64,000 nucleotides of DNA, taken from contig NC_092640.1 in NCBI RefSeq assembly GCF_039555335.1, positions 36,512,784-36,576,783 on the forward strand, read 5' to 3'. Under the pieces are notes generated by a model. That model made no database searches. It had not been told where the DNA came from and saw only the letters and a list, made by a program, of their open reading frames with translations. Positions 1 through 45,000 of this stretch are shown piece after piece. The position numbers and the translations under genes were made by a program. Each line of letters begins with the position of its first letter. Position 1 is the first letter of the stretch. Source of the DNA: Amphiura filiformis (lineage: Eukaryota > Echinodermata > Ophiuroidea > Amphilepidida > Amphiuridae).

Positions 1-93
1 GAGATGACTACCATGCAGTGCTAAATACTTTGGCCGGGTGTAGTGACTAGTAGGTGTGGGTTGTGACGGGTAACCCTATGTTATTCCACCAAT

Positions 94-885
94 ATGAGGG
101 TCGGAATTGTCGTGAGTACCATCACCACAGTTTTGTGGTTGATGACTTGTTATCGTGATTCAAAACCCATCCCTTTTGCTGCACAACAAAATGAATCAGT
201 GCAAATGAAACATGTCTATGTACTGAACCAATGTAATATAAAGAACGCATACGGTCCAACTATGGAGATAATAGATTTATCAGCTTTTGTATTCATTATT
301 GACTTCTATGACTATATCAACATTACCATATCTCAATTCCAAACAAATACATACTTGTGTAAACTTGAACATGTTTATGAAAGCTTTGTATGGTACCATG
401 ACATCCCAAGTAAGATCATGTTTATATTTAGATTCTTCCCAGTAAATCTGAAATTACTGCTTGGTAAAAACAAAAACCAAACAAGTGGTAAAGGGAAGAT
501 GAAAATTCTGATGTATCTATGTTTATTATATATCATGCAGGCCGGGGATACTGAGCTAAATCCAGGGCCAGAGTTCCCATGTAAGATCTGCCAAAATGAA
601 TGTGACTGGAGTAGGTATGCAGTCCAATGTGATTCATGTGATCACTGGTATCATGCAGAGTGTATGAACATGGATACAATTGTTTACCATGCCTTGGAGG
701 ATAGCAATATAACATGGATATGTTGTGACTGTGGTATGCCGAATTTTGCTAGCTCGCTTTTTAGTTCAAGCGCTCAACCATCTTGTCAAACAGCTTCAGT
801 TCACTGGCATCACTTAGTACTGAAGATGAAACTGGCTTATTATCACCAGTCGCAGCATCATCCCCAATACAAAAATCTTATGTAG
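94..885 (+). pseudogene. 5' part of the retrotransposon ORF: leader, 2A-like peptide and PHD finger
   Basis: Residues 1-135 form a leader without a recognised domain. Residues 136-159 are a hydrophobic stretch ending in the 2A-like motif (541-570). Residues about 161-210 are a PHD-type zinc finger with the series C-x2-C, C-x2-C, H-x2-C and C-x2-C (CKIC, CDSC, HWYHAEC, CCDC). After about position 780 the frame looks wrong: a Ser/Thr-rich continuation is open in the next frame (about 790-930), so the residues up to the stop at 883-885 are probably not native. In related elements this region is fused to endonuclease-RT. PHD fingers bind histone tails, so a role in chromatin targeting is plausible, but that is inference. 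Confidence 0.8.
541..570 (+). other. 2A-like ribosome-skipping motif in a retrotransposon
   Basis: The ten codons read A-G-D-T-E-L-N-P-G-P, which matches the conserved D-x-E-x-N-P-G-P signature of 2A peptides. It is preceded by a hydrophobic helix-like stretch (LMYLCLLYIMQ), as in functional 2As. 2A peptides make the ribosome skip the Gly-Pro bond, releasing the upstream product and continuing with Pro as the first residue of the next. Here the PHD finger starts two residues after that Pro. 2A-like sequences are known in APE-type non-LTR retrotransposons of trypanosomes and several marine invertebrates. Skipping activity of this copy is inferred. Confidence 0.88.
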
Positions 886-897
886 AAACGCATACAG

Positions 898-1600
898 GTG
901 AAAGAAGGGAAAAATGGTCTCAAAACCAAAAATAAGAACATCCGCAAAACTAGCCAAGTGAAGGTTATGGTACTGAATTTCCAGAGTGTCAATAACAAAA
1001 TTGCTGAACTCGCCATCTGTCTTGACAACCACAAACCAGACGTGCTTATCGGTACTGAATCGTGGCTGTCGCCTGGGGTCAGCAACAGTGAGATATTTCC
1101 TCCCGACTATTCAGTCATCAGGAAGGATAGACCACCAAACGAGAAAGGCCAAAGCCATGGTGGTATCTTCATTGCTGTAAAAAATGACCTCATTGTGTCA
1201 CATCGCGACTGACCTTGACACAGAATGTGAGATCCTTTGGATCCAGCTTGAGTTAGTGAATACAAAAAACATCCTGATCGGAGCCTTTTATAGGCCACCC
1301 GATTCTGGGCCTGATGTTTTAGATCTGTTACAGCAATCTTTGTCCAAAATTGACCTTTCTAAAGGTCCTCAAATTTGGCTGGCAGGTGACTTTAACCTTT
1401 CCCACATTGACTGGGACAGCCAGTCCACTTTATCCAAATGCCCAAAACCAGGGCTGTGTCGACAGCTCATAGAAATCTCCAATGATTTCGGATTTGAACA
1501 GATGGTGAAATACCCTACCAGAGGGGACAACATTTTAGATTTACTTTTCACAACTAACCCATCTCTTGTTGTGAAAAGCATCACAGTGCTGCCGGAATGA
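898..1600 (+). pseudogene. APE-type endonuclease domain of the 2A retrotransposon (frameshifted)
   Basis: Two overlapping frames carry the domain: 898-1212 (NFQSVNNKIAEL, PDVLIGTESWL, SHGGIFIAVK) and 1184-1600 (ILIGAFYRPPDS, WLAGDFNLSHIDW, NILDLLFTT). These are the usual endonuclease blocks of APE-type non-LTR elements, including the catalytic Asn and Glu (N-x-Q-S and T-E-S-W-L) and the GDFN block. The frame shift near 1205 and a second near 1600 break it. The expected SDH block lies at the junction with the RT frame (MSDHDGIPL at 1597). Confidence 0.85.
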
Positions 1601-3740
1601 GCGATCATGATGGGATTCCTCTGATCAATATTGACACCAAACCAAAAATCAACAAATCTAAACCTAGAAAGGTTTTTCAATTTTTTAAGGCAGACTGGTC
1701 AAACATCAAACAGGATTTGACTGAAATCAGTTCTGACTTTTCAGATATCATACCCGATCTTGTGTCAGCTGATGAGCTCTGGGTGGATTTTAAGAACAGA
1801 ATTCAAGAGACCATGGAAAAGAATATTCCATCACGTGTTGTTTCAAGTGGTAAAAAAATACCCTGGGTTGACTATGAAGTCAAACGTGCCCTGAGACATA
1901 AACAGAATGCCTATAATAAAGCAAGGGCAACTGATTCTTCTGAGCACTGGGAGATATTTAAATCTCTTAGAAAACATGTCAATCGTCTCACCAGAAGTAA
2001 ATACAGGAGATACATCAGAGATGTTTGCGCTGAATCCAACAAAAAATTCTGGTCTCTGATAAAAAGTTTGAAAAATGATAGTTTTGGCATTCCTACTTTA
2101 AAATCCGTAGTAGGCTGTAACATCACTGAAAACAAAGAGAAAGCTGAAGTGATGAATGATCAATTCCAGTCAGTATTCACACAGGAGAATATGAACAATG
2201 TACCTAGCATCACCTCAACTCAATTCCCTCCCATGCCTGACATTGACATTAGTACCGACGGTGTGACAAAGCTTTTGCTTGACCTTGACATGACCAAAGC
2301 GACTGGACCGGACGAAATACCTGCGCGTATCTTGAAGATGGGAGCGGCGGAAATCGCACCAGCACTCACAACCATCTTCAGACGCTCTCTTGAAACAGGC
2401 ATTCTGCCTGATGATTGGAGATGTGCGAATATATCTCCAATCTTCAAGAAAGGGGACCGCACGACACCTGCAAACTATAGACCGGTTTCCCTTACGTCTA
2501 TAAGCTGCAAGGTTATGGAACATGTTATTTTTTCAAGTATCATGCGCCATCTTAACCAATTTAATATCTTGACCGACCAGCAACACGGCTTTCGCCAAAA
2601 TAGATCGCGAGAGTCCCAGCTTATACTGACAATACACGACTTTGCCCTGTCCCTCGACAGTAAGCAACAGACTGATGTTATCATCATGGACTTTAGCAAA
2701 GCCTTTGATGTTGTACCACACAATAGGCTTATGCTGAAGCTTGACCACTATACGCGGACCTATCCACGCTTGGATCTCCGACTTCCTAATGCGAAGAAAG
2801 CAGAGGGTTGTCATTGGGGTGAGAACTCGGACTGGGTACATGTCCAATCAGGCGTATCAGGGCACTGTACTTGGTCCTTTACTTTTCCTTTTATACATAA
2901 ATGACCTACCAGACAACATCACCTCCACGTTCGACTATTCGCGACGACTGTGTTATTTACCGACTATTACGAACGACTTTGACGCTGATTTAACTCCAGA
3001 CAGACCTTGACCGGTTGTCCGAGTGGGAGGAAAAATGGCAAATGAAATTCAATCCAGATAAATGTTTTGTACTCAAAATGACTCATTCTCACAATCCTAA
3101 GACCCACACATACTCACTTGCAAATACTATCCTCCAGGAAACAAATTCTCACACATACCTTGGCGCCGAGATCGCCAACGACTTAAAATGGAACAAACAC
3201 ATCAATAACATTGCAGCAAAGGGAAATAGGGCTCTGGGTTTTGTCAAAAGAAATTTACGCTCATGTACAGAGGACATCAAACAACTAGCATACCAGTCTC
3301 TAGTTAGACCATCCCTGGAGTACAGCTCATCAGTATGGGACCCTTATACTGCTGAAAAAATCTACCAACTAGAAGCAGTACAGAGAAGGGCCATACGTTT
3401 CGTCAAGAATAACTATGACAAGAGAGCTAGCGTAACTGAAATGTTAAAGAACTCAAACTGGTCGTCACTACAGCAAAGGCGCAAGATAGCAAGACTGTCA
3501 ACTTTCCAGAAAGCATACCAGGGTTACCTGTCCATCCCTATCCGAACACTGCTACGCCCGGTCACACGTACAACGCGTCGCTCACACAGCAAAGCTTTTA
3601 TTGAAGTACAGACAACCAAAGACTGTTACAAGCATTCTTTTCTGCCTAGAACTCTGAAGGAGTGGAACAGTTTACCAGAGGAGATAGTTAACATAGAAGA
3701 CCCTAAACAATTCAAGACGCAAGTCATTAATTACCAGTAG
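1597..3740 (+). pseudogene. Reverse transcriptase and C-terminal region of the 2A retrotransposon (frameshifted)
   Basis: Frame 1597-2904 carries the linker and RT fingers/palm: ATGPDEIPARIL, SPIFKKGDR, YRPVSLTSISCKVME, the QQHGFR block, and motif A (IIMDFSKAFD). Frame 2741-3010 continues with QGTVLGPLLFLLYINDL (motif B). Frame 3015-3740 carries the thumb (SEWEEKWQMKFNPDKC, LGAEI, YSSSVWDPY) and the end-of-ORF block typical of CR1/L2-like elements (EWNSLPEEIV). The catalytic FADD box near 2938-2950 is disrupted by a missing base. The ORF ends at 3740, about 60 bases before the AAG tail. Confidence 0.88.
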
Positions 3741-12010: not shown

Positions 12011-12454
12011 ACGTCAATTTGCATATTCATGACATGACGTGATCAATTTGCATATTCATAAGATAACGTGATCAATTTGCATGTTCATGAGGTGACGTCA
12101 TTTATTGCATATTCATGAGGTGACGTCATTAATTCCATATTCATGAGGTAATGTCACAATTTGCACGATGAGGTGACGTCACCAATTTGCAAATTCATGA
12201 GGTGACGTCATCAATTTGCATATTAATGAGGTGACGTCAATAATGTGCATATTCATGAGGTGACGTCATCAATTTGCATACCATGAGGTGACATCATTAA
12301 TTCGCATATTCATGAGGTGACTCCATCAATTTGTATATTCGTGAGGTAACGTCATCAATTTGCATATTCATAAGGTGACGTCATTAATTTACATATTCAT
12401 GAGATGACGTCATCAATTTGCATACTCATGAGGTTACTTCATTAATTTACATAG
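12011..12454. repeat. About 29-bp minisatellite (15 units) with octamer and CRE motifs
   Basis: About fifteen tandem units follow the pattern ATTTGCATATTCATGAGGTGACGTCA plus 2-3 linker bases. Most units contain an ATTTGCAT octamer (POU/Oct site) and a TGACGTCA palindrome (CREB/ATF site) at a fixed spacing of roughly two helical turns. Units vary by point changes and small deletions, so this is an old array. It lies 130-570 bp downstream of the LIM gene stop codon, on the 3' side of that minus-strand gene. Confidence 0.9.
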
Positions 12455-19000: not shown

Positions 19001-19374
19001 AGTCGAGCCCTGATTATGTTGTCACTTTCACACCGTTTGGTATGCAGTCAAAGGTCTTGAAGTAATGCAAAGAGTTAGGCTCTGCCTACTTATAATATCT
19101 AAATTTTGTAATCTTCAGTAGATAGCAGGCGGTTACTAATTTGAGTCTGCATTATACTTAAACTTGATTAACTTTTAATGGTCAAAATATGTTGAGATAG
19201 GCTAAAGATTATGTAAAACAATCCTTTTAAAATGTTTGCACCCTTCAGATTCCAAGTGAAGGAATGCATATTGTCCTGGGAATGATTAGACTTATATTTA
19301 CTGGATGGACATGAAGACTAGAACTACAGCTATGTTATGTTGATATTTAAAATTTAAATGCTAATACCTGTTTA

Positions 19375-20189
19375 TGTGATGCGATTAGGCAAAATCAGTC
19401 GGAGCTCGGAAATATTGATATTGAGATATAGGCAAACAAAGGAACTATTTCTTTTGTTTCTTGCTGTTTTGGAAACTCTTTGCTCATATGTGAGTGGACG
19501 TGGCGAATCAGCCGTAAACTCGGCAAATTGTATTCTGAGTTAAAGTGTAAAATGTATGTGGAGGTCGTATTCATAGGTGTATCAATTCGTTGCGACAAGT
19601 ATCTTATCAAACGCTGTTTAAATCAATCAATAATACTACTGCTGAAGAGGATAATAAGCTTCAACCTATTTCTATAGAATAGTTCTTGTCTTTGTTTGCT
19701 TTGGCTAAATCCTATTCAAGTGGTAGATAACAAAGCATTGTATTTTGTCTAGGTATGTATCCGGGGTATGTATAATCAACAATGAACAATGAGAGGATAT
19801 TTCTGAACCTCGTTGACTTGAGGATGATTTGAAATGACCGCCAATTATGACTGTTGGATATTTATTACCAGAAATGTAGAAAAAGAGACACATGTAGAAC
19901 CGATAACAAATACAATTTTGTCGAAGGAACAGAGTTCAACAAATCATAACCCCGCTTTTGGATATCGTTTGAAGTCAAATGATATACCATTTTAAAGCTT
20001 ATGGTATATATTTTCTAAACACGAAATAAAACAAAATTGACCTGGGCCGACTTTACGGCTGATTCGCCGCGTCCAGTCACATATCTTTGGAACTGGGGTT
20101 TTCTGTAAAATCCAGCTTTGGAAATCCTATAAGAAACTGAAGATTTAATATTTCCCGAGTTCCGACTGATTTTGTTAGATCGCATCACA
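19375..20189. mobile_element. 815-bp inverted-repeat element, longer relative of 25494-25731
   Basis: The ends TGTGATGCGATTAGGCAAAA and CCGACTGATTTTGTTAGATC are the same terminal repeats as in the 238-bp MITE at 25494-25731. A subterminal GAATCAGCCGTAAA/TTTACGGCTGATTC pair also folds. The interior holds unique DNA with no transposase. Confidence 0.7.
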
Positions 20190-20406
20190 TTTACAATAAA
20201 GTGTCACTGGAGCTGAAATAGATAACTGAATGAGTACGATGCGGGTAAGGACAAACTGCATTATAATCATATTTTGTTAATCTTGTTATTTGGCTGGTTG
20301 TAAAGAATTTCGACTTAATGGAGTTACACAAATTACATGGCTGAGTAAGAGAAACATAATTATATTCGAAAATTAGATGTAGACCATAAGATATTTTAAT
20401 ATCTTA

Positions 20407-21896: not shown

Positions 21897-22015
21897 TCAG
21901 ACGCAAGCTGGAACCACCTTCTTAACCACTGGGATAGAAACACGTGAAATCAAAGACATTTCCATTGTCGTCTGTATTGGTACAAGTGCATCACAATCTG
22001 GTCCGCAGCGTTGAT
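21897..22015 (-). CDS. Candidate terminal exon of the secreted protein
   Basis: The acceptor GTATCTTTCAAACAG precedes 119 bases that are open only in the phase left by the upstream exons, ending in TGA. The encoded tail starts DQRCGPDCDALVP and ends in A-C-V. The phase match and new Cys pair favour it, but no polyadenylation signal was seen downstream. Confidence 0.55.
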
Positions 22016-25000
22016 CTGTTTGAAAGATACATGCAATAAGTATAAATATAATTATACAGATACCATATTAAAAACATGTGCGTATGCCTTTATTGTTTTA
22101 AGTTTTTCGAATAATAGCATTAGACATGTTAGACCACATGGCGAATGCCCAATACATCCAACAGACAGGACGAGCTATAACAGGAATCTCATCTACGTGA
22201 TACTCTACGATGCCAACTTAATTTTAGGCCTTTTTTGAGAAAAAAATGTATAGCTTCAATACATTCAAAATTTTCAAATGATGGATGTGTGTTCCTCCCA
22301 GCTAAATACACTTTAAGTACATATCATTAGATTTATAAAGTTTACCTCGAGGACTGTTTTATATTTTTGATAATTAAAATTATCAAAAATATAAAAATAT
22401 CAATTTTAATATTTTACCATAAAATTTGTATAGCATGGCAAATTACAAAAATCAAAATTATTTCAGAAGGATACCGGTATTGAGTTCTGAATTTGTATGT
22501 GGGGTATCTCAGAATGTGCCTGGGTATATTTGGAAGTTAAACTGAAAAATTAGTGCGAAAGTGATTTGAAACTAAGGCTGTAGCACTTTTCAAAATTCTG
22601 GATATCAGTATTTTTTCAACAATTTGTCTATGAAATACCGGGTGAAATGAAACAAGAATGTGTTTATTGTGCTATATTCACAATTACAAAGAAAGAAGGA
22701 GACTGTCTTACTTGGTTTAAACACTTACCATTTACGGTCTGGCAATACTGAAAAGTATAAATTATTAATAATGTCATTAAAATATGTTTAAGGGTTACAG
22801 ATTGTTATTATCGTCCTTTTAAATAAAAACCAAAACAAACTTTGTCATTTGAAATACTTCAATCAATCAGAATATGCCTGGGTATATTGAAAAGTTTAAC
22901 TGAAAAGATAGTGCGAAAGTGATTTGTAGCTAGGGCTGTAGCACTCTTAAAAAATCTGGATATCAGTATTTTTCCAACACTTTGTTTATGAAATACCGGG
23001 TGAAATGAAACAAGAATGTGTGTTTATTGTGGTATATTCACAAAGAAAGAAAGAGAATGTGTTACTTGGTTTAAACACTTACCATTTGTAACGTCAGGCA
23101 ATACTGAAAAGTATAAATTATTAATGTGTCATTAAAATATGTTTAAGGGATTTAGATTATTATTATCGTCCTTTTAAATAAAAACCAAAAAACTTTGTCA
23201 TTTAAAATACTTAAATCAATACTGAAAGATAACATTTGCTGATCGTATTTGGCAGCTAATTTCCACTTAAATGTATATTCGCATCGCAAATAATAATAAT
23301 AATAACAGCACTTAATATAGCGCTTTTCCAACCTGATCAAAGCACTTTACAAAGATACAAAATATATACAAAAAACATATTATACCAGAAAGGGGCTCAA
23401 AAAACAGCAACAATCAGTACAAGCGAGTTTTTAGGTTACTCTTGAAACTATCTACAGTGGGGGAAATGTTTAAAGGAATGTTGTTCCACAGTTTGGGTCC
23501 CTGTACACTGAAAGACCTATCACCAATTAATCTGTTGCTCCTGGGGACAACTAGACGAGTTGCGTCTAACGCCGAGCGTAAACCCTCTCTGGTTGGGATA
23601 TATAGATCGTCAAACAATCCGACAGGTAGATTTGCAAAATCAAAATTATTTCAGAAGGATATGGAGTTCTGAATTTGTATGTGGGGTATCTCAGAATACG
23701 TCTGGGTATATTTGAAAGTTAAACTGAAAAAGTAGTGCAAAATTGATTTGTAGCTAAGGTTGTACCACTCTTCATAAATCTGGATATCAGTATTTTTCCA
23801 ACAATTTGTCTATGAAATACCGGGTGAAATGAAACAAGAATGTTTCTTTATTGTGGTAAATTCACAAAGAAAGAAGGAGACTGTGTTACTTGGTTTAAAC
23901 ACTTACCATTGGCACGGTCAGGCAATACTGAAAAGTATAAATTATTAATGTGTCATTAAAATATGTTTAAGGGATTTAGATTATTATTATCGTCCTTTTA
24001 AATAAAAACCAAAAAACTTTGTCATTTAAAATACTTCAATCAATCCGGGACGTATTCTATGCATCATTCAATAACTAATATATTTGGGATTGTACATAAT
24101 GACAACATATGCCTCTAAACACTTAACATATTGTCGATGAACTCTGTGGTCCGAGACACATCTTATAAACAATTTAACAAAATTCAAGGACGCAACTACG
24201 TATTGGCGCAATCTCCTAGTTAACCCATATATAACCATCGCAACACGAATTTCGTACCGTGTGCAGATGGGTGCAATTAGCAGTAAGTGCAGTAAGTTCC
24301 TTGTCCATAGGAATTTCAAGCTGGCTTGTTTTTTCACGAGAACTGAAATTGGCACTGCGAGGGTCGAACTCGCACCGTCAATTCTGTATAGACCCTGGTT
24401 CATGACACGTTGATACAGATTGATCTAACTTGACCTATAATATAATGTTTTCAGAATATTGCATCATATACAAAGATCTAGTTTAGAAAATGAATTCATG
24501 ATGGTGAAATGAAGACATAAACTCTGGACTTTAAACATTAATTTTGATAACTAGAATCCCGTAACAGTCCCAACCCAACATTTTAATGTGGAAGTCGTTG
24601 TTTAATGTATTTTATTTACAATAGTATGCTCGTTCATCTATTTTGACCCCAGAAGCACACGGTATACCTTAGTTAACATAGACGATACTAAAACCGAGCA
24701 ATTTTTATTATTATATATCTAAGAATTCCAGGATTTAAAAGAGTTAATGAAAGATAACATTTTCTGATCGTATTTGGCAGCTAATTTCCCCTTAAAATGT
24801 ATATTCGCTTCGCAAATTGCAAAATCAAAATTATTTCAGAAGGATATGCAGTTCTGAATTTGTATATGGGGTATCAGAATATGCCTGGGCATATTGGAAA
24901 GTTAAACTGAAAAAGTAGTGCAAAAGTAATTTGTAGCTAGGGTTGTACCACTCTTCAAAAATATGGATATCAGTATTTTTCCAACAATTTGTCTATGAAT

Positions 25001-28000
25001 CCCGGGTGAAATGAAACAAGAATGTTTGTTTATTGTGGCAAATTCACAAAGAAAGAAGGAGACTCTGTTACTTGGCTTAAACACTTACCATTGGCACGGT
25101 CAGGCGATACTGAAAAGTATAAATTATTAATGTGACATTAAAATATGTTTAAGGGATTTAGATTATTATAGTCGTCCTTTTAAATAAAAACCAAAAAACT
25201 TTGTCATATAAAATACTTCAATCAATCCGGGACGTATTCTATGCATCATTGGATAAATAATATATTTGGGATTGTACATGATGACAACATATTCGTCTGA
25301 ACACTAACATATTTTGATGGACTCTGCGGCCCGAGACACATCTTATAAATCATTCGTGTAATACGTTATTTACCTTGCCTTGTACAATACATTAGTTCTA
25401 CCTTATTTAAACTACTGTAATATAACTTATAAACAATTTAACACAATTCAGGGACGCAACTTCATATTGGCGCAGTCTCCTAGTTAACCCATATGTGATG
25501 CGATCAAGCAAAATCAGTCGGAACTCGGAAATTTTAAATTTTCAGTTTCAAGCATTTGCAAAGCTACATTTTGCAGAAAACCCCATTAAAATTGAACAAC
25601 CAGTTCCAAAGATATTACCAATAACAGAGTTTCCAAAACAACAGGAAACAAACGGAAATATTACCTTTGTTTGGCTATATCTCAAAATCAATATTTCCGA
25701 GTTCCGACTGATTTTGCTTGATCGCATCACATATACCATCGCAACACGAATTTCGTACCGTGTGCAGATGGGTGCAATTAGTAGTAAGTGCAGTAAGTTC
25801 CTTGTCCATAGGAATTTCAAAGCAAAGAATTCCAGGATTTTAAAAGAGTTACTGAAAGACAACATTTGGCAGCTAAATTCCCCTTAAAATGTATATTCGC
25901 ATCTCAAATTTCAAAAATAACAATTATTTTAGAAGGATATAGCGTTGGAAATATGGAGTTCTGAATTTGTATGTGGGGTATCTCAGAATATGCCTGGGTA
26001 TATTGGAAAGTTAAGCTGCAAAAGTAGCGCGAAAGTGATTTGTAGCTAGGGCTGTAGCACTCTTCAGTATTTTTTTTAAAAGAGTTACTGAAAGATAACA
26101 TTTTCCGATCGTATTTGGCAGTTTCAAAAATCAAAATTATTTTAGAAGGATATGGAGTTCTGAATTTGTATGTGGGGGTATCTCAGAATATGCCTAGATA
26201 TATTGGAAAGTTAAACTGAAAAAGTAGCTAGGGCTACTTCTTTATTTCATAAAGAAAGAAGGAGACTGTGTTAGGGATCAAATCAAAACTCGACCGCCGG
26301 TTGCCCGCCGGTTCCGGGCAGTTCCGTCCGGTTCTAAATTATACACAGTAATGAGGTCAGTCGTCACACCCTGGTTCATATGGCCGGTTGGTATCATCGA
26401 GTGAGTGAGTGGAGTGATTTCAAGTGGTTTCTTTTCAAATTTAGTACAATAGGAATAATTGATTTTCCTTCTCGGAGTTCTTCTCAATCAATGTGGCTAC
26501 TTTTAGTATTTTATTTTGATAAAATATAAGCAGAGACTTGTTCTGTTTATTTCTAATTATTTTACATCGTGACAGGTTCGACAAGACATATTTAAAAGTT
26601 TCATTTCCGAGGGGGATAATCGCGATCTCGGAATTCTGCATGTTTTAAAACGCAAGGGTAATACATTTTTCATAAACTGTGCTTATAATCGAAAGAAAGA
26701 AAATAAGAAAAGTAGATGAGTCAATCAATATCACTTCAACTAATGATTTTTTGCGATTTATGCACGCATCATGTCTTCTGGAGGCAGATTTGAACTTATG
26801 AGCTTTCATGAAATCGCCCTATAGTACTAGTAGTATATAAATAATAAGTGTTCATCACCAATACATGCCTATGTGATTCACAAAATAATAAATTCACAAC
26901 TTCTAAATTACTTAACCTATAGAAATCATTAAAACTCTGTTCTGAACTGAAATTAACTGATCTAAACAATGGTGATATATTCAAGCAATTTTAACCATAA
27001 ACAAGAAATCATTTTCAAAATAATTTGCTTTGGTAACAAGTCAATAGACACACGACTAAGAAAAATCGATCGCCGTGTAGTACTTTCAAGTCTGCGCTAT
27101 TGTAACCGTGAATTGTCAAGTATGCGCGATTGTGATCGCGAAATAGACATATCGACATTTTGTTAATCTCCCCGGTTATGTGCTTAAACCAACCGGCGGT
27201 TGCTACTCATGCATTCTTGAATATTCATATACCAATGACCTCTGCCAACCGGACGGAACCGCCCGGAACCGGCGGGCAACCGGCGGTCGAGTTTTGATTT
27301 GATCCCTTACCTGGTTTAAACACTTACCATTTGTACGATCAGGCAATACTGAAAAGTATAACTTATTAATATTTCATTAAAATATGTTTAAGGGATTCAG
27401 ATTGTTACTATCGTCCTTTTAAATAAAACCAAAAAACTTTGTCATTTGAAATACTTCAATCAATCAGAATATGCATGGGTATATTGAAAAGTTAAACTGA
27501 AAAGGTAGTGCGAAAGTGTAGCTAGGGCTGTAGCACTCTTCAAAAATCTGGATATCAGTATTTTTTACAACAATTTGTCTATGAAAATAATACCGGGTGA
27601 AATGAAACAAGAATGTTTGTTTATTGTGGTAAATTCACAAAGAAAGAAGGAGACTGTGTTACTTGGTTTAAACACGTACCATTTGTATGCCGCTTACGGT
27701 CAGCCAAAACTGAAAAATATAAATTATTAATGCGTGATTAGAATGTGTTTAAGGGTCTCAGATTGTTATTATTGTCCTTAAAAAAGCAAAAAAATTAGTT
27801 GTCATTTGAAATCCTTCAATCAATCATAGGACGTAATCTATGTATCATTGAATAAATAATATATTTGGAATTGATATAGTGCGTAATGACAACATATGCC
27901 TCTGCACACTTTAAATACTGTGGCACGAGACACACAGTGTAAACCATTTAACAACATTTAAGGCTAGTTGACCCACATATAAGCATCGCAAAATTTCGTA

Positions 28001-31000
28001 CCGCGTGCAGATGGGTGCAATTAGCAGTAAGTGCAGTAAGGACCTTGTCCATAGGAATTTCAAGCTGGCTCGATTTTTCACGAGAACTGAAATTGACACT
28101 GCGGAGGCTCGGACTCGCAGCGTCAATTCTGTATAGACCTTGATTCGTGACACGTCGACGTGTCAAGAACCAAGGGCTATACAGATTCAGCTAACTTGAC
28201 CGATAATATATTGTTTTCAGAATCTTGCATCCTATACAAAGCTTTAGTTTAGAAGATGAATTCATGATGGTGAAATGAAGAAACAAAACAATGATTTTAA
28301 TAGCTGGAATCCCGTAACAGTCCCGTCCTCAACATTTTAATGTAGAAGTCGTTGTTTAACGTATTTTAATAGCGATATTATGCACGTTGGCATTATTTTG
28401 ACCCCATTAGCAGAAGCAAAATATAATGCATCCTACAGTCTGTCCACTTAGAAGTACAAAGTAAATAGACCTCGGAAACTGCAGGTATATGAGAATAATA
28501 TTCTTCAGTGCAATGCGCCTAACTACTGCTTTGGCGCGCCAACTGCTGCGCGATTTGTACTTGCCGAGCGCACCACGCTCTCTACGCGTCGTGTTTTTTA
28601 AAACACGCAGTGCATGTGACGCAAAGCATCGATCACAGGTGCCACAAATTTGGTTTGTACTTCTATGTGGACAGACTATATTTGAATCTATAATTTTGTT
28701 TAAACATTACGATATTATTTGACATATTTTCTTTACCATTTTATTTGGGTCTTCTACAATTATACATGTAGCTATACCCTTTCTTCACTTTCAATAATAC
28801 TCTGATCCACGGTTGTGATATTTTTTCTAAATTTTCTAACAAATCATTATATAATGTTCAATTCTAGACCTGGATAATACCAATAGCTATTGAATCGTGG
28901 TAAAATTTATTCTATAAACTGTATATTTTGTGCACATTGAGGGTGCTATTTACATATCCCACCTGAAAATTGTAAAATTATGCAGTCGGGGCTGGTGGGT
29001 ATACTGCATTGAAAGTTTATAATGCAATATTTTAAGCGGCCTTTGTCTTCCCAATTGGGTATTTACAACATCAGTTTGGTGCGGATGGACCCCAGTAATG
29101 GCTCGTTGGACTCGTCTAATCATGTATGTGCGACAATCAAGCCCAAATACTGATTTTCAAATAGGCATTTAAAATTTTGGAAAATACATTTTCTTTTTTT
29201 TATTTCAGGATATTCAGGATTTTGAATACTTAGACTTGTGCCCAGGTCTATGAATTTTGGGGCAGAAAATGGAAGGAAACATGCCAAATTGCATGTTGTT
29301 GGTACATTTCCCCCAAATTACAAAAACATCAAAATGTAATTTTTATTGCTAGATAGTACTAATTACAGGATTAAGATTTGGCAAAACAGGATAATATTTT
29401 TTAATCCCAACAGCGACCTTAATACATAATGTAGGTATTGGTGTTTGCCTGCATGGGACGGCGTGGGTGTGAATAAGCATGTATTTAGGTGTAAATAACT
29501 TATATAGAAAAGATAAGGTTTGTTTCAGTGTTTTTGCCCAAAAAATGCCACACCGCACGAGACTTAGGCTTACATATACATATATTTAAAATCTTACGTC
29601 GGCAGTTGTATCCATCCATACCATAAAAGCAAACTTGGTCGTCCGGACATGGGTCGCTCGAACAAGGGTTGTCACCTGAAATAGGAACACAGTCACTTGT
29701 TTAACGGAATATTTTCACTTCCATCAACTGACATAAAATCCACAAACCCCGTGAGCTCGCAATTGGTGTTGATATAGCGCATTTGTAACACTAGCATTGG
29801 GCTCAAAGGGCGTATGAAAATGATAAAGAGTGATAGAAAGTTAATCAGATACAGTGTAGATCCAATCTTTTCCCGCCTAATCTCCCAAACTGAAGTCTTC
29901 CATAATGTCACAATTCTAGCCCGGTAGGCCCTATTTCGTTTAAACCGCCCAAATATCGATGTAAAAAAGTCTTCTAGGTTTTCAGATAAAAACCGACAGA
30001 CATTTATTGAATGTAAACCACTGTTGTCAAAATAAATAAATAAATGTGGCAAACATGTGGCCCCTACCCGCAGATGTTCCTTTTGCAATGTTGTTGCTTT
30101 CTTAACAAAAGAAACCCAAAAGTCATAACTTTAAACGAGGGATTGATCATAAACATCTCATTTTTTCACTGGAACCTTCCGTTTTTAGTTATATTGCAAA
30201 TCAGGTAATTAGCACAAAAATGCTCAAATGTTGTCCAAATTGTATCTGCCTTGGTAACAAAAATGAGGTAAATTTAACTACTAAAATTGAATATAAGTTT
30301 AGATTTTGTCCATTGGACACTTTTAAGTTATATGTAAATTAGCTAATTAGCATAATAATGTTAAAATGTTGTCCAAAGTGCATCTTTATTTTTTTCATTG
30401 GACCCTTCCGTTTTGAATGTACTGCCGTTTCTCAGGGCTCAGAGTTGGTACACTGATAGTTCTTGAGCATCATATGTTTATAATGAGCGCCATTTGTTAC
30501 GATATATTATGAGCTCCAGGGCTCCAAATAACAAAGGGACGGCTGTTTCCCAGCCTGCACAAATAACATGCGTGTAAAACGTATTTGTATGCAAATTCGA
30601 AAAATAATACCAATTTCTTTTCTGAATAACATTAACCATAATACCGTTAATTATTATTCCTGAACTAAGTGTGTACTTTCAACGAACTACAGCTAGGTTC
30701 AAAATGCAATAAAATGGAGTTATATGCCCTTACAAAATGTATATATTTCATGTAGATATTCAATTACGGCAGAAAAGAATATTTTGCCATAATGATGTTT
30801 TTATGTAACTGTATGTATTTTTTACGATATTTGTTTTATAAACATGCTTTGTATATTGTACCTTGCAATGTTAATTTTCTCATTCCGTGTTATATGATTA
30901 TATTTTGCATTACATGCTTAATTGTTCTCTTTTCGTATTGTGTTTTATGATACTATACTGCGCCAAATAAGTATCCTTACACTCGGAAATATGATCATAA

Positions 31001-34000: not shown

Positions 34001-35476
34001 TCCAAAACATCACTATATAGCAAGCAGTCTCCAATTGGTTACCATTATTTTATGCTAAAGACATGAATTTACTTAAATATTGATGATATTTGAGTTAAGG
34101 GGTAGGGGTAGCATTGTGGGGTATTTTCCCAGTTCTACTGAGTCCAATTTCACAACCTTGGTCTTGTTGGGTAGATATGAACTGCAAAAGTACAAAAAAT
34201 ACATGAGATATTAATTTAGAACAACTCTGACTTGACCATGGGTTAAAGGGACATGTGACGCCTGATTTGTAGTAATTTTCAAGGCTGTGTGACCTTTTGA
34301 CCTCTGATCAAAACATGGACAGCCTAAAATCATATATCGTTTATTTTTGGCAATGCTGCAGTTCATATCTATGCAACAATACCACATCTCGGAAATTTGA
34401 CTGAGTAGAACTGGGTAAATATTCCATAATACTACCCATACCCTTAATATAGCAACTCAAATATCATTAATATTTAACTTACATACGTGTTTTTAGGAAA
34501 AATAATGGTAACCAATTGGAGACTGCTTGCTATTTGGTGATGTTCTAGAGGGTTCAAACAAACTACACAAAGTGTTTGATATTGGTTAGGATGACATCTG
34601 AGTGCCTACTTTTCCCAGATTGTTTCTACTGATTTATCTATATCATGTATATACAGTTATACAATAAGAATAACAAAAAAACTTTTATTTCAGCTCCATA
34701 CTAGTATGTACCCCAGTAAAATTCTCCGGGAGTTCCAAGTCAATCCGAGAAAAAAAGTGATTTCGCCTCACCCTAATGTACAACTCATAATGTTAACACA
34801 AGATAAGCATCTGCTGTTCAGTTGGCTTTGCCACTTTCAGATAATGAAACCAGCAAATGCCGACACTTCAACAAATATTGTTAACTTTAAGTGGCATGAA
34901 GGTTATTAAAACTGTCTTTGGAATGTATTATTATAATTTTGCAGGCCAGAAAGACGCATCTCAGTGCAGTGTTTGACCAAATTGAGTTCTGACCGAAGGC
35001 CTCAATTCAGAGTTGCGGCTTTATGGCTAACTGCAAATGGCTATATTGAGGCTAAGTAGAATTGTGCTATACTTGTATATAATATGAAGTTTGATTGGGT
35101 TAAAGTTTTTGATTTGAAGAATCTGTAGGTGCTGTTGATTATGTTGGTACCAAAATCTCAAATTAGCCAAAAGTGAGTTAATGCTTTCTGTTTCTGAACC
35201 CTCTACTTATGAATGGATGTTCTTTTAAAACGGCTATGAGTTTTAACAATTAATTGTTAATTATATAAATATATTATAATGTTTTATAACATTTTCCATG
35301 TATTTTGCATGGACAGTGATTCGGTTGAATCGGGCTACCCTGGGTGAACATGTTGTAAATAAATAAATAAATAAACTAATAAATATATTATTGGTCTTAC
35401 CTGATGCCAGTGGTGAAGCAAATACGGTTTGTGCCATGAAGGCAAAGAGGGTCGCGATGATAATAAGCTTATTCAT
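21897..35476 (-). CDS. Secreted small cysteine-containing protein with EGF-like segment and candidate alternative micro-exons
   Basis: Minus-strand exons: 35476-35401 (signal peptide), 29675-29598 (EGF-like), then optional micro-exons between 27709 and 22729, then 22015-21897 (terminal). Every core junction is phase 1 with GT-AG sites. Without micro-exons the product is about 90 residues; each 21-base micro-exon would add seven. Residues 1-20 are a classic signal peptide (MNKLIIIATLFAFMAQTVFA). The EGF-like part has four Cys (NPC, DPC, QVC, YNC) and G-Y. The tail adds RCGPDC and a Cys near the C-terminus. It is probably exported. The EGF resemblance is partial because the usual C-x-C step is not seen. 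I recognise no named family. A TATA box precedes it. The terminal exon is less certain than the first two. Confidence 0.65.
22729..22747 (-). other. Candidate micro-exon copy 1 (19 bases, frame-breaking)
   Basis: Flanked on the minus strand by ATACTTTTCAG and GTAAGTGTTT like its sister copies, but two bases shorter, so inclusion would shift the frame. Confidence 0.4.
23083..23103 (-). other. Candidate micro-exon copy 2 (21 bases)
   Basis: Acceptor ATACTTTTCAG, donor ATG|GTAAGT. Read in phase 1 it encodes L-P-D-V-T-N between the split codons. Confidence 0.45.
23288..23632 (-). mobile_element. 5'-truncated L2-like non-LTR retrotransposon end
   Basis: The minus-strand ORF at 23617-23414 encodes the end block of L2/CR1-type polymerases (SALDATRLVVPRSNR, DRSFSVQGPKLWNNIPL, FKSNLKTRLY). 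It is followed by a 3' region with TGTAAAGTGCTTTGATCAGG and GCGCTATATTAAGTGC, and a TTATTATTATTATT tail. It interrupts one repeat unit of the array. Confidence 0.83.
23907..23927 (-). other. Candidate micro-exon copy 3 (21 bases)
   Basis: Acceptor ATACTTTTCAG, donor ATG|GTAAGT. In phase 1 it encodes L-P-D-R-A-N. Confidence 0.45.
24330..24400 (-). repeat. tRNA-like B-box segment, probable SINE remnant
   Basis: The minus strand reads GGTGCGAGTTCGACCCTCGC, close to a tRNA B box (GGTTCGANNCC). A diverged copy is at 28085-28150. No cloverleaf can be completed, so it is not a tRNA gene. Confidence 0.35.
25089..25109 (-). other. Candidate micro-exon copy 4 (21 bases)
   Basis: Same splice sites as copy 3. 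One base differs, giving S-P-D-R-A-N in phase 1. Confidence 0.45.
25494..25731. mobile_element. 238-bp MITE with 40-bp inverted termini
   Basis: The termini TGTGATGCGATCAAGCAAAA and its complement continue into AGTCGGAACTCGGAAAT. TA flanks both ends (25492-25493 and 25732-25733). The paralogous repeat unit near 24230 has the uninterrupted CCCATATATAACCATCGC, which is an empty site. Confidence 0.9.
26274..27306. mobile_element. 1033-bp PIF/Harbinger-like nonautonomous transposon
   Basis: Inverted termini of about 65 bp with few mismatches start GGGATCAAATCAAAACTCGA and continue with CCGCCGGTTGCCCGCCGGTT-type GC-rich sequence. TTA flanks both ends (26271-26273 and 27307-27309). A TTA/TAA 3-bp duplication with G-rich ends fits PIF/Harbinger. 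The interior is AT-rich without a transposase. Sister repeat units show the empty site (GACTGTGTTACTTGGTTT). Confidence 0.86.
27328..27348 (-). other. Candidate micro-exon copy 5 (21 bases)
   Basis: Same splice sites. In phase 1 it encodes L-P-D-R-T-N. It lies 22 bases from a 1-kb transposon inserted into this repeat unit. Confidence 0.45.
27680..27709 (-). other. Candidate micro-exon copy 6 (30 bases)
   Basis: Acceptor ATATTTTTCAG, donor ATG|GTACGT. Nine bases longer than the others, keeping the frame. In phase 1 it encodes L-A-D-R-K-R-H-T-N. Confidence 0.4.
28437..28677. mobile_element. 240-bp MITE with 27-bp inverted termini
   Basis: AGTCTGTCCACTTAGAAGTA at the left pairs with TACTTCTATGTGGACAGACT at the right. 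The interior is GC-rich (GGCGCGCCAACTGC, TACGCGTCG), unlike the AT-rich surroundings. Confidence 0.75.
28680..29590. other. Intron sequence, nothing specific seen
   Basis: AT-rich. A minus-strand ORF at 29349-29558 has no recognised domain. Confidence 0.35.
29598..29675 (-). CDS. EGF-like exon
   Basis: The acceptor CCTATTTCAG and donor GAC|GTAAGA bound 78 bases, phase 1 on both sides. The reading is GDNPCSSDPCPDDQVC followed by FYGMDGYNCR. The N-P-C...P-C...C...G-Y-x-C pattern is typical of EGF-like modules. It joins in frame with the signal exon. Confidence 0.72.
30170..30410. repeat. Two diverged tandem units of about 150 bp
   Basis: The segments near 30171 and 30322 share CTTCCGTTTT, AATTAGC(A/T)AATTAGCA-like words and AAATGTTGTCCAAA(T/G)TG. 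No coding signal. Confidence 0.5.
30958..31550. mobile_element. Inverted-repeat element of the CTGCGCCAAA family (longer copy)
   Basis: The left arm (30958-31130) and the inverted right arm (31390-31545) share ACATTATGACACC, TTGAATC(T/C)AATGTGACTT and AACTGAACCATATTG. The left terminus ACTGCGCCAAATAAGTATCC matches the compact copy at 45633-45884. The right terminus is degraded. Confidence 0.7.
32601..33223. mobile_element. 623-bp inverted-repeat element within the RT relic
   Basis: Ends GGGCTTAGAGCCAGAACCA and TGGTTCTGGCTCTAAGCCC. The interior repeats TGGACATA(G/A)CCA(G/A)TTTTGGC words four times. No clear target duplication was seen. Confidence 0.65.
33398..33760. mobile_element. 363-bp MITE with TTAA target duplication
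   Basis: Termini GGTGGTACTACACCTCTTGA and its near-complement, flanked by TTAA at 33394-33397 and 33761-33764. TTAA is typical of piggyBac and Kolobok superfamilies. Removing it restores continuity of the flanking RT relic reading (YFKAL then VYKFLNDL). Partial copies lie at 3829-4028 and 45345-45428. Confidence 0.9.
33836..34773. mobile_element. 938-bp inverted-repeat element with TA duplication
   Basis: Arms of about 75 bp at each end (GGGTGGGCGAAAAACACTTT at the left; the right end is its near-complement, with TCTCCGGGAGTTCC). Further inward pairing occurs (CAATTGGTTACCATTATT, AGCAAGCAGTCTCC against GGAGACTGCTTGCT). TA lies on both sides. No transposase ORF. Confidence 0.82.
35401..35476 (-). 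CDS. Signal-peptide exon
   Basis: ATG at 35476-35474, 25 codons plus one base, then the donor CAG|GTAAGA. The hydrophobic core IIIATLFAFMA is followed by a small-residue cleavage region (VFA-SP). A TATA box lies 68-73 bases upstream of the ATG. Confidence 0.83.
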
Positions 35477-37160: not shown

Positions 37161-38478
37161 AATATTGTTAAAATTTTAATCCTTAATTTATCTTGTAATG
37201 ATTTCTTTTCTGAAAATTGAAATTAAGGGCGCACAGCCATACTTTTTGGTGGTGTGAAGTATCATTAATTACAGTGTCTGTTGTTCTACATGTTGTGCAT
37301 GTACAGCCTGTCTCAAAAAAAAATTGTGCAAGTGAAAAGCGCCCTCTTTGGCAATTACAAAATACCATTGTGACATGATGCTTCAGTACAGCAACGTCAA
37401 GGGCAGAGTCTAAGCTCTACAATACCGTTTGTTCTGTTCAATTTGCTCTTTTTAATCTCGAGATATGTTTAGTTAACAACTAAAGGGTAAAATCACAATT
37501 GTCCAACTGGGGACAGTGTCTTTGAAAAGAGCGGTATTGTATTCAATCAGCGAGTGTACACATACACGGGTGATGAGTGCGGCCTGATTATAGTGCAGAG
37601 CAATACACTAAAAATAGTGTAAACCCATTTATATGGTAAATAATCTGGTACATCACTACTTCTACAGCGAATAGTATGAATGATGCTAGATATGGCTTGC
37701 CACCTTTCCGTTCCGGTTTTTTTTTTAAATTTTTTTTTTAGAGGCGTGGGAAGAGATCCGTTTTTAGAAGGCAGGAGGAAAACCTGCGAGGACGAGCATG
37801 GGCCGGCAACCAAACTCACATGTGGCAACGTGGGAAATTGGACCGGGCTGTAGTAGTGAGAAGCGAGTCAGTACAATGACAACTATACTATATCACTCAC
37901 CGTTGCTCACTGTAATTATTACCGGCGTTCACTCTAATCATTACCGGGGTGGTAAATGGCTGCATGATGCGCACTTCCAACCTTTGCTTTGCTCTCCTTA
38001 CCTAACCCCTCTTTCTCCCTGCATGCCCTTGCCTTTCTCCCGCATGCTGCTTACCCTTTGATTTACTTTGATTTGCTATTCTTACTATACTTAAGGTTCC
38101 AATTATGGCAATTCCATCAGTCCTCCTGTTCCTAATCGCCTCTCTGTAGTTACCAACCCCCACGTTCTCGAAGATTGCATGTCAATCGCGGACCACCTGT
38201 TACGGCTTTGCCTTGCGGCATAGTTAACAGACGGGGGCTCTGGGGGCAATAGCCTATGGCCTGAAAGGCTGCTGGAGCAATCTGGAAGGCTATAGAATAT
38301 TGCTTACGGGAAGGAAAACCCGAACAAGCCCATAGGGGCCCTTACGTGTATATTTAAGGCAAGTGGCTGGTGGCCCGCCCCTATGTAAGTAATGCAACAA
38401 CTCACCCGACTGGGAAGTCATTGGCCGTGTACCCAGTATGTAAAGCAGGTCAATACTCTTAAAGAGTAATCTCCTATC

Positions 38479-39198
38479 ATGAAAGTCGACACCCCCCCGT
38501 TAAGGCCCCTAGTCCCGGTGGCTGCTCGTCGGCAACAGAGTGGCAGGGGTGCTAAGAATCCGCCGGATGTTTGGTTGCCATCTCCACAGGTACAAATAGA
38601 GGAAGAAACAAGGAAGACAACCAGGATCAGCGTAAGTAGCCGGAAGTCGACAAAATACCAAAATGTGACAAAAGCCACAGCTGAGCAGGCCTCAAATACA
38701 AGGGGCCGCACTGTGACAAATAAGCCAATAGTGACAAAACAGCCAACTCTAACAAAGACTGCTGTACAGGAACCTACAAAGAAAAGGAGCTCCAGTGGTA
38801 TTAATATAGGAACCTGGAATGTCAGGACGCTTAGGACGGAAGGTCATTGGGAAATCCTCCTTGATGAAGTAAGAAGATTTGGTCTTGACATCCTTGGACT
38901 CTGCGAAACACATCTGACAGAATCCGAGACACTCATCAACAAAGATGAATACACCATCCTTCTAGCAGGTAGGAAAGATGGCATTGGAAGAGAAGGTGTT
39001 GGGCTTCTAATATCACAGCCACTTCTTGAAAGTTCAAAACGAAGGATGGAATACTCAACATCATTAATGTTTACGCCGCCACCACTACGCACAGTGATGA
39101 AGAGAGTGATGAATTTTATGATGGGCTACAACATCACCTTCAGAAAGTCAATAAGAAGGAGAAACTTATTCTTATGGGGGATTTCAATGCCAAAATAG
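38479..39198 (+). pseudogene. RTE-like ORF, first part: basic N-terminus and endonuclease start
   Basis: 239 codons. Residues about 1-105 are basic and low-complexity (Thr/Lys/Arg-rich). From residue 110 the endonuclease begins (INIGTWNVRTL). The reading goes out of frame near residue 185 (after LLISQPLLESS), with the true continuation in the next frame. Confidence 0.8.
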
Positions 39199-41024
39199 GC
39201 TCTGACAGTAAAGCTTGGACCCCCGCAATGGGCAAGTATGGTATTGGTAAGATCAACAGCAGAGGGGAGAAACTGTTGGAATTCTGCATGCTCCACAAGT
39301 TGACAGTTTGTAACACCCACTTCCAGCATAAAGCATGTGGGAAATACAAAAATATGACTGACTTTGTCATAACTCAACAGGAGAACCTAAGTACCATCCA
39401 GAATTGCCGATCATACTGCTCAGCTGATGTGGGCTCAGATCACAATCTAGTGATCGCTAAAGTGGTGTCAGCACCAGTCAGAACCAAACGCCTGAAAACA
39501 ACTCCAAAAAGCTATGACGTCAGTAGACTTACCAACCCCCTGATTGCAGAAGAGTTCAGAGCCAAGATTGGTGGCACTTTTGAACCCCTGCTTCAACTGG
39601 AGGATACTGATGTAGAAGACCTATGGACGAAGTTCAGAGACACCACAAACAAAATTACTGAAGAATCAGTTGGTATTTGGAGGGCTCGCCAAGTGAAGGG
39701 ATTGCCTGAAGAAGTCAGGAAAATGTGCCACTTGAGAAGAAAAGCCAGAGTCTTGATGTTAAACAACCCTTCAGCTCTAAACAAGAACTGTTATCGGAAG
39801 CTGAACAAAGGGGTCAAATATCAAGTGAAGCAGTGGAAAAGAAAACTTCTTGAAAAAGACGTTCAAGAAATGGAAGAAGCCCATGCAAAGAACATAAGCC
39901 ATGATCTCTTCAAGAAAGTCACAAAACTAGCAGGTGATAAAACCAAAGTTCAAACTGCAGCCAAAGACAAACATGGTTCACTGAAAACAGCCCCAGAGGA
40001 AGTAATGAAGTGCTGGGAGGAATACTTCAGTAAACATCTGAATACAGAATTCCCCAGAGACTGTAATATACTTAACTCCATCCCGGAGCCTGTTAACCCC
40101 GCTTCAGCAAGTTTGCCCTTTTCAATAGGTGAAGTTGAAGAGGCCATCAAGAACCTCATTGCAAAAATGTATGAGCAAACCAAATGCTCAGTCGTGGTAA
40201 ATGGAAAGATCGTCGATTGGTTTGAAGTCCTAGTTGGTGTTAGACAGGGATGTCTTCTCTCACCATGCCTCTTCAATCTATATCTGGAGTTTGTCATGAA
40301 GGACATCCAAAATCTTGGCTCCGGTGTGCAGATGGGTGACATGTGCATTAACAACATCCGATATGCAGATGACACCACACTCATTGATATGGACTTTGAG
40401 AACCTGCAAATCTCCACGAAGGAATTGGAAAAAGCATACAGCAGCTGGGGAATGAAAATTAACCCAACAAAATGCAAGATCATGTCTGACGATCCAAGAG
40501 ATATCATGCTGAACCAAATGCCCATTGACAAAGTAAATAACTTTGTCTTTCTGGGTAGTAGTGTGCCCTCAGTTGAAGAGGATATTAAACGTCGCACAAA
40601 GTTGGCAGCATGGGCATTTGGTAGATTGAAAAATACCATCTGCTCTAACCATGACATCACCAGATCGCTGAAAGTAAGGATCTACCAGTCGCACATCCTC
40701 CCTATTGCCACCTATGGGTCAGAATCCTGGGCGTTACATGGATCTGATCGACACAGATTGGATGTTTTTGAAATGCGATGCCTTAGGGCAATGCTTGGAG
40801 TTTCACTACTTGACAAAATCCGCAACAATTCCATCAGACAGAGTCTCAACATCACTATCTCCATCAATGATGTTATCTGCCGGAGACGTTTGAAATGGGC
40901 TGGGCATATCTTCAGAATGCCTCTACATCGGCTTCCCTACCAAGCCTACATTAATGACTTCAGCAAGAAAAGACCACCAGGTCGTCCACCAACCACTATC
41001 ACCAAATCGTATCGTACATTTTAA
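39174..41024 (+). pseudogene. RTE-like ORF, second part: endonuclease end and deleted reverse transcriptase
   Basis: 616 codons. MGDFNAKIGSD and SDHNLVIA close the endonuclease. Residues about 100-320 are the linker. Near residue 328 the RT fingers and motif A are missing. Residues 340-420 carry VRQGCLLSP and YADD; the C-terminus has the GHIFRMP block. The catalytic Asp pair is intact but the enzyme cannot be functional without motif A. Confidence 0.85.
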
Positions 41025-44269: not shown

Positions 44270-45000
44270 TTCAAATGGTCTAAACTTACGGTACAAAAAC
44301 AATTGCGCGGATTCCTGGTTGTCCAATGAACTCACGATGTTCTTTGTGTACAATAATTTCAGGCGGTGGTGGATGCGACATCGCCATTTTTGACGTCGCC
44401 ATTGGATTAACACGTAATCATGAAATCTTCAAAAACAATTCTAAATGTGTTATGTGGTGTCAAAACAAAATTATGTTATTCTAAAACCGTTGGGGTTCGA
44501 CAAAGTACCCCACTGTAAGTATGTTGTTTTTCGATTTATAACTGCTAACCGTATAATTTGAATGGGCCTCGTACGTCACGTGTCGCGTGACCTATACCGC
44601 CTGAATAATTTATAACATTTGACCCCCGGGGGCATTCAAACTTTCTGAGTACGTACCACCTTTAAAGCGGCAGGTAAAAATCTGGAAAATATCAAGTTTA
44701 ACTGCACTTGGAACCATCATGATGACAAGTGATACAAGTTTGAGTACATTTTGTGGTCACCTTGAGATAAATACTACCCATAGAAATGATTAGCCAGTGA
44801 TTAGCCAGTGTCAAGGGTTAGCAACTTTGTGGTGGATATGTGCCATCAGCTAGTTATTGTAACTACATAAACCAGACACACATTCCATTTGGGGCGCACA
44901 ACGATCTAGCCCTTTAAGAGAAATATTTTTAAATGCTAATCAGAATGCAAAACGAATAAAATATTAAAAACATTATTTGTGAACTATACAAATGTCTATA
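44270..45000. other. No gene seen
   Basis: Unique-looking sequence with a GC-richer patch (44560-44640). No supported exon on either strand. Confidence 0.35.

Follow-up and report, generated by a model that had tools for sequence, protein, structure and literature searches.

The question raised by this locus is whether six short segments in a predicted intron, each lying between a splice-like acceptor and donor, are micro-exons of a small secreted protein of Amphiura filiformis or passive copies of one stretch of intron DNA. All positions refer to the window, the whole stretch of 64,000 nucleotides that was analyzed. The original prediction proposed that the segments form a diversifying cassette and kept passive copying, or chance, as a fallback. 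The fallback fits better: descent explains the lengths and peptides, no significant sign of selection was seen, and one copy breaks the frame. The passive reading, in which tandem duplication carried along one pair of sites, arisen by chance or dormant, to give the six candidate micro-exons, is given a probability of about two in three. The features of the locus are listed in Table 1.

Table 1. Positions of the predicted exons, the repeat array and the candidate micro-exons (array and units from blastn self-comparison and a repeat finder).
Feature	Position	Strand	Remarks
Predicted first coding exon	35401..35476	-	MNKLIIIATLFAFMAQTVFASPLAS..; ends in phase 1 (G/GT); from sequence and translation
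Predicted second exon	29598..29675	-	78 nt, phase 1 to phase 1; GDNPCSSDPCPDDQVCFYGMDGYNCR with join
Predicted last exon, reading a	21897..22015	-	acceptor 22015; QRCGPDCDALVPIQTTMEMSLISRVSIPVVKKVVPACV, then TGA (stop included)
Last exon, competing reading b	21922..21971	-	acceptor 21971, other frame; DNGNVFDFTCFYPSG, then stop (included)
Imperfect tandem repeat array	22411..28412		inside predicted second intron
Array unit A	~22411-22868		
Array unit B	~22867-23220		
Array unit C	~23632-24657		
Array unit D	~24784-25349		related pieces up to 25820
Partial array unit	~25825-26066		without candidate exon
Array unit E	~26075-26228 and 27307-27465		split by insert
Array unit F	~27464-28412		
Insert in unit E, mobile-element-like	26270..27310		~1 kb; 64-nt terminal inverted repeats (97% complementary), TTA on both sides
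Candidate micro-exon, copy F	27680..27709	-	30 nt, donor GTACGT
Candidate micro-exon, copy E	27328..27348	-	21 nt
Candidate micro-exon, copy D	25089..25109	-	21 nt
Candidate micro-exon, copy C	23907..23927	-	21 nt
Candidate micro-exon, copy B	23083..23103	-	21 nt
Candidate micro-exon, copy A	22729..22747	-	19 nt, frame-breaking; TGA at junction with either last-exon reading

Candidate sites and repeat array

Both strands of the whole window were scanned for TTTTCAG followed after 6-45 nt by GTA[ACG]GT. Six pairs were found, all on the minus strand, with spacings of 30, 21, 21, 21, 21 and 19 nt, and none elsewhere on either strand. The coordinates given in the original prediction for six pairs 19-30 nt apart on the strand of the host gene are therefore right, as are its peptides LPDRAN, SPDRAN, LPDVTN, LPDRTN and LADRKRHTN when the copies are translated in phase 1. 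Five copies have a complete GTAAGT donor. TTTTCAG, the acceptor core, is unchanged in every copy, even in F, whose left flank is the most diverged. The acceptor reads TACTTTTCAG in five copies and TATTTTTCAG in the 30-nt copy F, with a pyrimidine tract of CTTTTCAG preceded by A/T-rich sequence.

The self-comparison, which covered 21.5-30.5 kb, and the repeat finder place all six pairs in an imperfect tandem array, as had been claimed, although the intron that holds it is itself predicted. Identity between units is 79-93% in alignments of at least 350 bases. The candidate exon lies at the same place in each unit that has it, and the partial unit stops short of it; the copies share a common origin. 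Breakpoints are identical at the A/B (22867) and E/F (27464) junctions, so that this pair of units was probably itself copied; the stretches 22707-23220 and 27306-27824 are 87% identical. Since the six sites are drifted copies of one founding site, they count as one observation. The repeat itself is beyond chance; the single founding pair is not clearly so.

Predicted host gene

The predicted first exon reads MNKLIIIATLFAFMAQTVFASPLAS, which was judged by eye to be signal-peptide-like, and its donor (TCAG/GTAAGA) scores 7.3 bits. The second exon reads DNPCSSDPCPDDQVCFYGMDGYNCR, is rich in cysteine and fits the first in phase 1; its acceptor scores 5.1 bits and its donor (CGAC/GTAAGA) 1.5 bits. 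For the last exon two readings compete, with acceptors of 1.4 bits (reading a) and -0.4 bits (reading b). Of phase-1 openings with at least three cysteines among their first 40 residues and an acceptor scoring 1 bit or more, the stretch from 14000 to 35300 has only four, two of them at 29675 and 22015.

No Pfam family matched either joined protein at E values up to 1, and a match to the EGF family was likewise absent. Against PDB, reading a gave 18 sequences with insignificant E values (0.4 to 8.5), mostly the start of prostaglandin synthases, a region that carries an EGF-like module; reading b gave 9, also insignificant (E 0.95 to 7.5), including coagulation factor X and Notch. Codon usage was rejected as arbiter between the last-exon readings for its low power: it scored reading a at 6.1 and reading b at 0.7, but preferred the wrong frame of the second exon (5.2 versus 1.5), with a table trained on a single glycosyltransferase ORF of 682 codons. 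The flanking exons had been called confirmed; with no Pfam match and two competing last exons they are plausible predictions only, and so is the gene that they would form.

Length and reading frame

Relative to the common 21-nt form, two length events suffice to account for all six candidate exons, +9 in copy F and -2 in copy A; the first is in frame, the second is not. A hand tally over the rest of the aligned unit gave 14 length events, of which 3 are divisible by three; the junction of the insert in unit E, a gap of 103 columns in that unit, the unit ends and ragged ends were excluded. It had been argued that five of the six spacings are divisible by three. The count is right, but as an argument for coding it comes down to two length changes, the rest being descent: one 21-nt site copied in tandem would give both the divisible spacings and the related peptides. 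The agreement of the copies in length and motif is thus for the most part shared ancestry.

The exon at 29675-29598 ends in phase 1 and the acceptors at 22015 and 21971 are both entered in phase 1, so that inclusion of 21 nt would keep the frame whichever last exon is used. Included singly, every copy but A leaves the frame open with either reading, and under reading a copies F to B also stay open in series. Copy A joined to either last exon gives TGA at once and the protein ends; all six in series also stop there. The claim that single or serial inclusion keeps the frame therefore holds for five copies (in series, for reading a) and fails for the 19-nt copy.

Splice-site strength and expected numbers

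Sites were scored with general splice-site tables, using a long-tract and a short-tract acceptor model. Under the long-tract model the acceptors of the copies score -0.8 to 0.7 bits, compared with 5.1 bits for the exon at 29675; under the short-tract model five score 3.3 bits and one 4.3 bits. The donor scores 5.7 bits, and 3.4 bits in copy F with its GTACGT. Of the strong acceptor and strong donor that had been described, the donor is indeed good; the acceptor is so only in part, its tract being short and set behind A/T-rich sequence.

With thresholds at the weakest copies, a spacing of 9-36 nt and the long-tract model, the window holds 28 pairs on the minus strand and 11 on the plus strand. 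The 28 comprise the six array copies, one pair nested in copy A and 21 pairs elsewhere. Forty random 64-kb strands of the same dinucleotide make-up gave an average of 16.2 pairs (range 9-28), which puts the minus count at the top of the random range, or at 22 when the array is counted once. Under the short-tract model five of the six copies and a minus-strand pair at 44681 reach the total of a typical copy, and no plus-strand pair does; 60 random strands averaged 1.57 pairs, and 49 of them had at least one as good as a typical copy.

Of 200 random 64-kb sequences, 29.5% held the exact motif pair on one strand or the other, with a mean of 0.335 per sequence. Scaled from 128 kb to the gene strand of the 7.6-kb intron, the expectation is ~0.02, a figure that speaks for a real site, tempered by the post hoc choice of the motif. 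The unit has three invariant AG..GT pairs with a spacing of 9-36 nt on the gene strand, sharing one AG, and four on the other strand. This count stands in as the opposite-strand control for a plus-strand mirror pair, ATTATTT[CT]AG..GTAT[GA]TG, which was found at five places and dropped, its donors scoring below zero.

Tests for selection

Changes were counted by maximum parsimony; the shortest trees of the six copies need 113 changes, and the first of 18 tied rooted orders was used. Only columns that have letters in at least five copies entered the count. The candidate exon shows 10 changes in 21 columns and the other columns 88 in 311 (Fisher p 0.08, towards more change). The splice signals, taken as 10 acceptor and 6 donor bases, show 2 changes in 16 columns, a protection that is not significant against the same 88 in 311 (p 0.25); both tests treat changes as columns. 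The comparison of micro-exon with intron substitution between copies, which the original prediction had named, thus finds the exon not better conserved. Among 328 windows of 21 columns, 31 match or exceed the exon in changes, six of these being the exon window itself and its nearest neighbours. Among the 20-column windows listed, the one over the exon core varies most, leaving aside the ragged alignment end, and it lies between less variable edges.

Of 9 exon substitutions, leaving out one change beside the deletion in copy A, 4 are silent when read in phase 1 and 2 when read in phase 0. Over 115 open window-phase combinations of the unit, each with five changes or more, the silent fraction averages 0.23 and 25 combinations reach 0.4 (P 0.13), the exon and background counts being made in not quite the same way. 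The excess in phase 1 is a weak hint of coding constraint. The candidate exon shows no significant sign of either protection or acceleration, and no constraint was detectable; selection may escape tests based on six related copies.

RNA structure and relatives elsewhere

The whole window gave no Rfam match at gathering thresholds, and folding around each of the six copies was no better than that of shuffles (z 0.20, -0.35, -1.16, 0.43, 0.36 and 0.73). An 8-base stem brackets the candidate exon, formed by TTAAACAT in the preceding intron and GTGTTTAA, which overlaps the end of the donor. Five copies show it in their predicted fold, the sequence would allow it in every copy, and F carries one strengthening change. 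As evidence for an exon-looping stem it was set aside: stems of this kind number 3 in unit B, where 50 mononucleotide shuffles average 5.6. An exact pattern scan gave no match in viral contigs, a pattern scan of bacterial and archaeal genomes gave 67 matches but no relative, and the neighbouring glycosyltransferase ORF gave one pattern match and no relative in viral contigs; none of these are animal genomes, and absence from them says nothing.

Interpretation

On the favoured account, a stretch of the predicted second intron, with a core of ~0.35 kb and longer flanks in some copies, was duplicated repeatedly in tandem. It carried one AG..GTAAGT pair ~21 nt apart, which had arisen by chance or was a dormant micro-exon, and drift followed in the copies. 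Normal splicing would join 29598 to ~22015 (or 21971); we infer that the copies are skipped, with at most occasional inclusion as noise.

Several observations were counted against passive copying: GTAAGT in five of six copies, TTTTCAG in six of six, a raw minus count of 28 at the random maximum, the scaled expectation of ~0.02, and 4 of 9 changes silent in phase 1.

A serious rival, if a somewhat unlikely one, is a real ancestral micro-exon: the unit would have grown around one functional 21-nt phase-1 exon, of which one or a few copies are still spliced while the others decay. Splicing would then add a short insertion, for example LLPDRxN, behind the Cys-rich exon. Such an origin would fit the phase-1 boundaries on either side, five open copies, five complete donors and the slight silent excess in phase 1. 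Exon and signals are nevertheless not significantly conserved among the copies, the pyrimidine tract is short, the -2 copy brings a stop, and the donor of the 30-nt copy is weakened. It is distinctly unlikely that the flanking exons do not form one gene, for example with the exon at 22015 belonging elsewhere or the gene having decayed, so that the array would lie in no working intron. The conflicting frames in the last exon and the lack of a Pfam match for either product point that way, while the good sites and matching phase of the first two predicted exons, and the scarcity of Cys-rich phase-1 openings, argue for a single gene. This alternative is compatible with passive copying, and the odds of the two overlap.

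The diversifying cassette, in which copies are alternatively or serially included as a variable linker in a small secreted protein, is possible but very improbable, with little in its favour beyond the open frames. Its frame logic holds for five copies, which stay open in series with reading a; the further evidence offered for it follows from descent. A variable exon core with less variable edges would suit it, and excerpts on schistosome micro-exon genes offer a precedent, but the extra change falls short of significance (p 0.08; 31 of 328 windows have as much). Inclusion of all six copies would truncate the protein at the stop of copy A, beside the last exon, and the host gene is itself only predicted. 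Marginally less probable again is a more specific form, in which a tandem array of five micro-exons that keep the frame, with splice signals preserved and a core that changes fast, inserts one or several variable linkers of 7 to 10 residues. The linkers would stand between the Cys-rich module and the C-terminus of the small secreted protein.

The most likely reading of the locus is ordinary tandem duplication of intron sequence. Its main value is as a caution: a duplicated splice-like pair can mimic an exon array, and agreement in frame that copies owe to descent is no evidence of coding. If the copies are used in RNA, the locus would show a micro-exon array arising from tandemly duplicated intron DNA; if the linkers are real, it would be a diversifying system like that of the micro-exon genes (MEGs), arisen in an animal other than a schistosome through tandem duplication within an intron.

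Comparison with known systems

Among the literature matches listed, the nearest parallel is provided by the schistosome MEGs. Excerpts of PMC10526429 and PMC5825161 describe long introns and short exons mostly divisible by three, and alternative splicing proposed to create variation. In the excerpt of PMC5825161, short symmetric exons (6-36 bp) make up ~80% of the coding region, and MEG-26 has an internal duplication in which the pattern of exon lengths is repeated. The reference list of PMC10526429 includes a paper of 1988 whose title names tandemly repeated exons encoding 81-base repeats. The likeness here lies in a predicted secreted protein, long introns, and short exons mostly divisible by three. 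The difference is that the short segments are copies of one site and only candidate exons, whereas the predicted exons measure 76, 78 and ~119 (or 50) nt, so that short symmetric exons of 6-36 bp do not make up most of the coding region. Titles and abstract openings among the matches listed name no array of near-identical micro-exons made by intron duplication, which is not a claim of absence.

Working human tandem duplicated exons are, in the excerpt of PMC9741552, mostly ancient, with mostly conservative substitutions. Tandem duplicated exons, mutually exclusive ones included, resemble the present locus in having neighbouring homologous exon-like segments in one intron. They differ from it in that constraint is undetected here and one copy is frame-breaking: five of six copies keep the frame, the 19-nt copy gives TGA, and exon and sites (10/21 and 2/16) are not significantly better conserved than the intron (88/311).

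Tandemly duplicated intron sequence with cryptic splice-like pairs is a known kind of non-coding duplication. The present array differs from it in having a pair whose donor side is rather well formed, whose strand is right and whose phase is open, and resembles it in its unequal non-coding copies, its mobile-element-like insert, and splice-like pairs at about the number expected by chance.

Sequence arms and last exon

Each of the six units of the imperfect tandem repeat array, which lies in the predicted second intron of a predicted minus-strand gene, retains a pair of complementary 8-base arms around its candidate micro-exon, a splice-site-like AG..GT pair. The 5' arm is TTAAACAT or TTAAACAC, and its partner, GTGTTTAA, overlaps the end of the donor; in unit B the arms stand on both sides of 23083-23103. 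Judged from sequence, pairing of the arms would loop out the candidate exon. Stems of this kind were not more numerous than in shuffled sequences. In the predicted last exon (21897-22015), two open readings overlap in different frames and both can be entered in phase 1; this double reading reflects either an alternative acceptor or one reading open by chance.

Other features of the window

Further features are listed in the table. The uninterrupted galactosyltransferase-like frame perhaps encodes two glycosyltransferase domains. The first non-LTR remnants contain GDTELNPGP, which we take to be a 2A-like motif, followed by a zinc-finger-like stretch.

Additional features of the window
Feature	Position	Strand	Details
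Non-LTR retrotransposon remnants	67-3740		reverse transcriptase match in 1558-2904
Tandem array	12014-12453		about 15 copies of 29-nt unit TCAATTTGCATATTCATGAGGTGACGTCA
Second non-LTR element	38470-41024		endonuclease and reverse transcriptase matches, frame 39030-41024
Open frame, 682 aa	48504-50552	minus	Galactosyl_T match, E 5.5e-58, three stretches
Open frame, thrombospondin type 1 domain	61253-61699		E 7.6e-12

Inserts with inverted ends

A small insert (25491-25736) has inverted ends of 51 nt beginning GTGATGCGATCAAG, with related copies at 19370-19479 and 20094-20197. Another, of about 1 kb (26270-27310), lies within unit E and has 64 nt terminal inverted repeats (97% complementary), GGGATC as its first bases and TTA on each flank. 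It looks like a non-autonomous DNA transposon, presumably resembling PIF/Harbinger.
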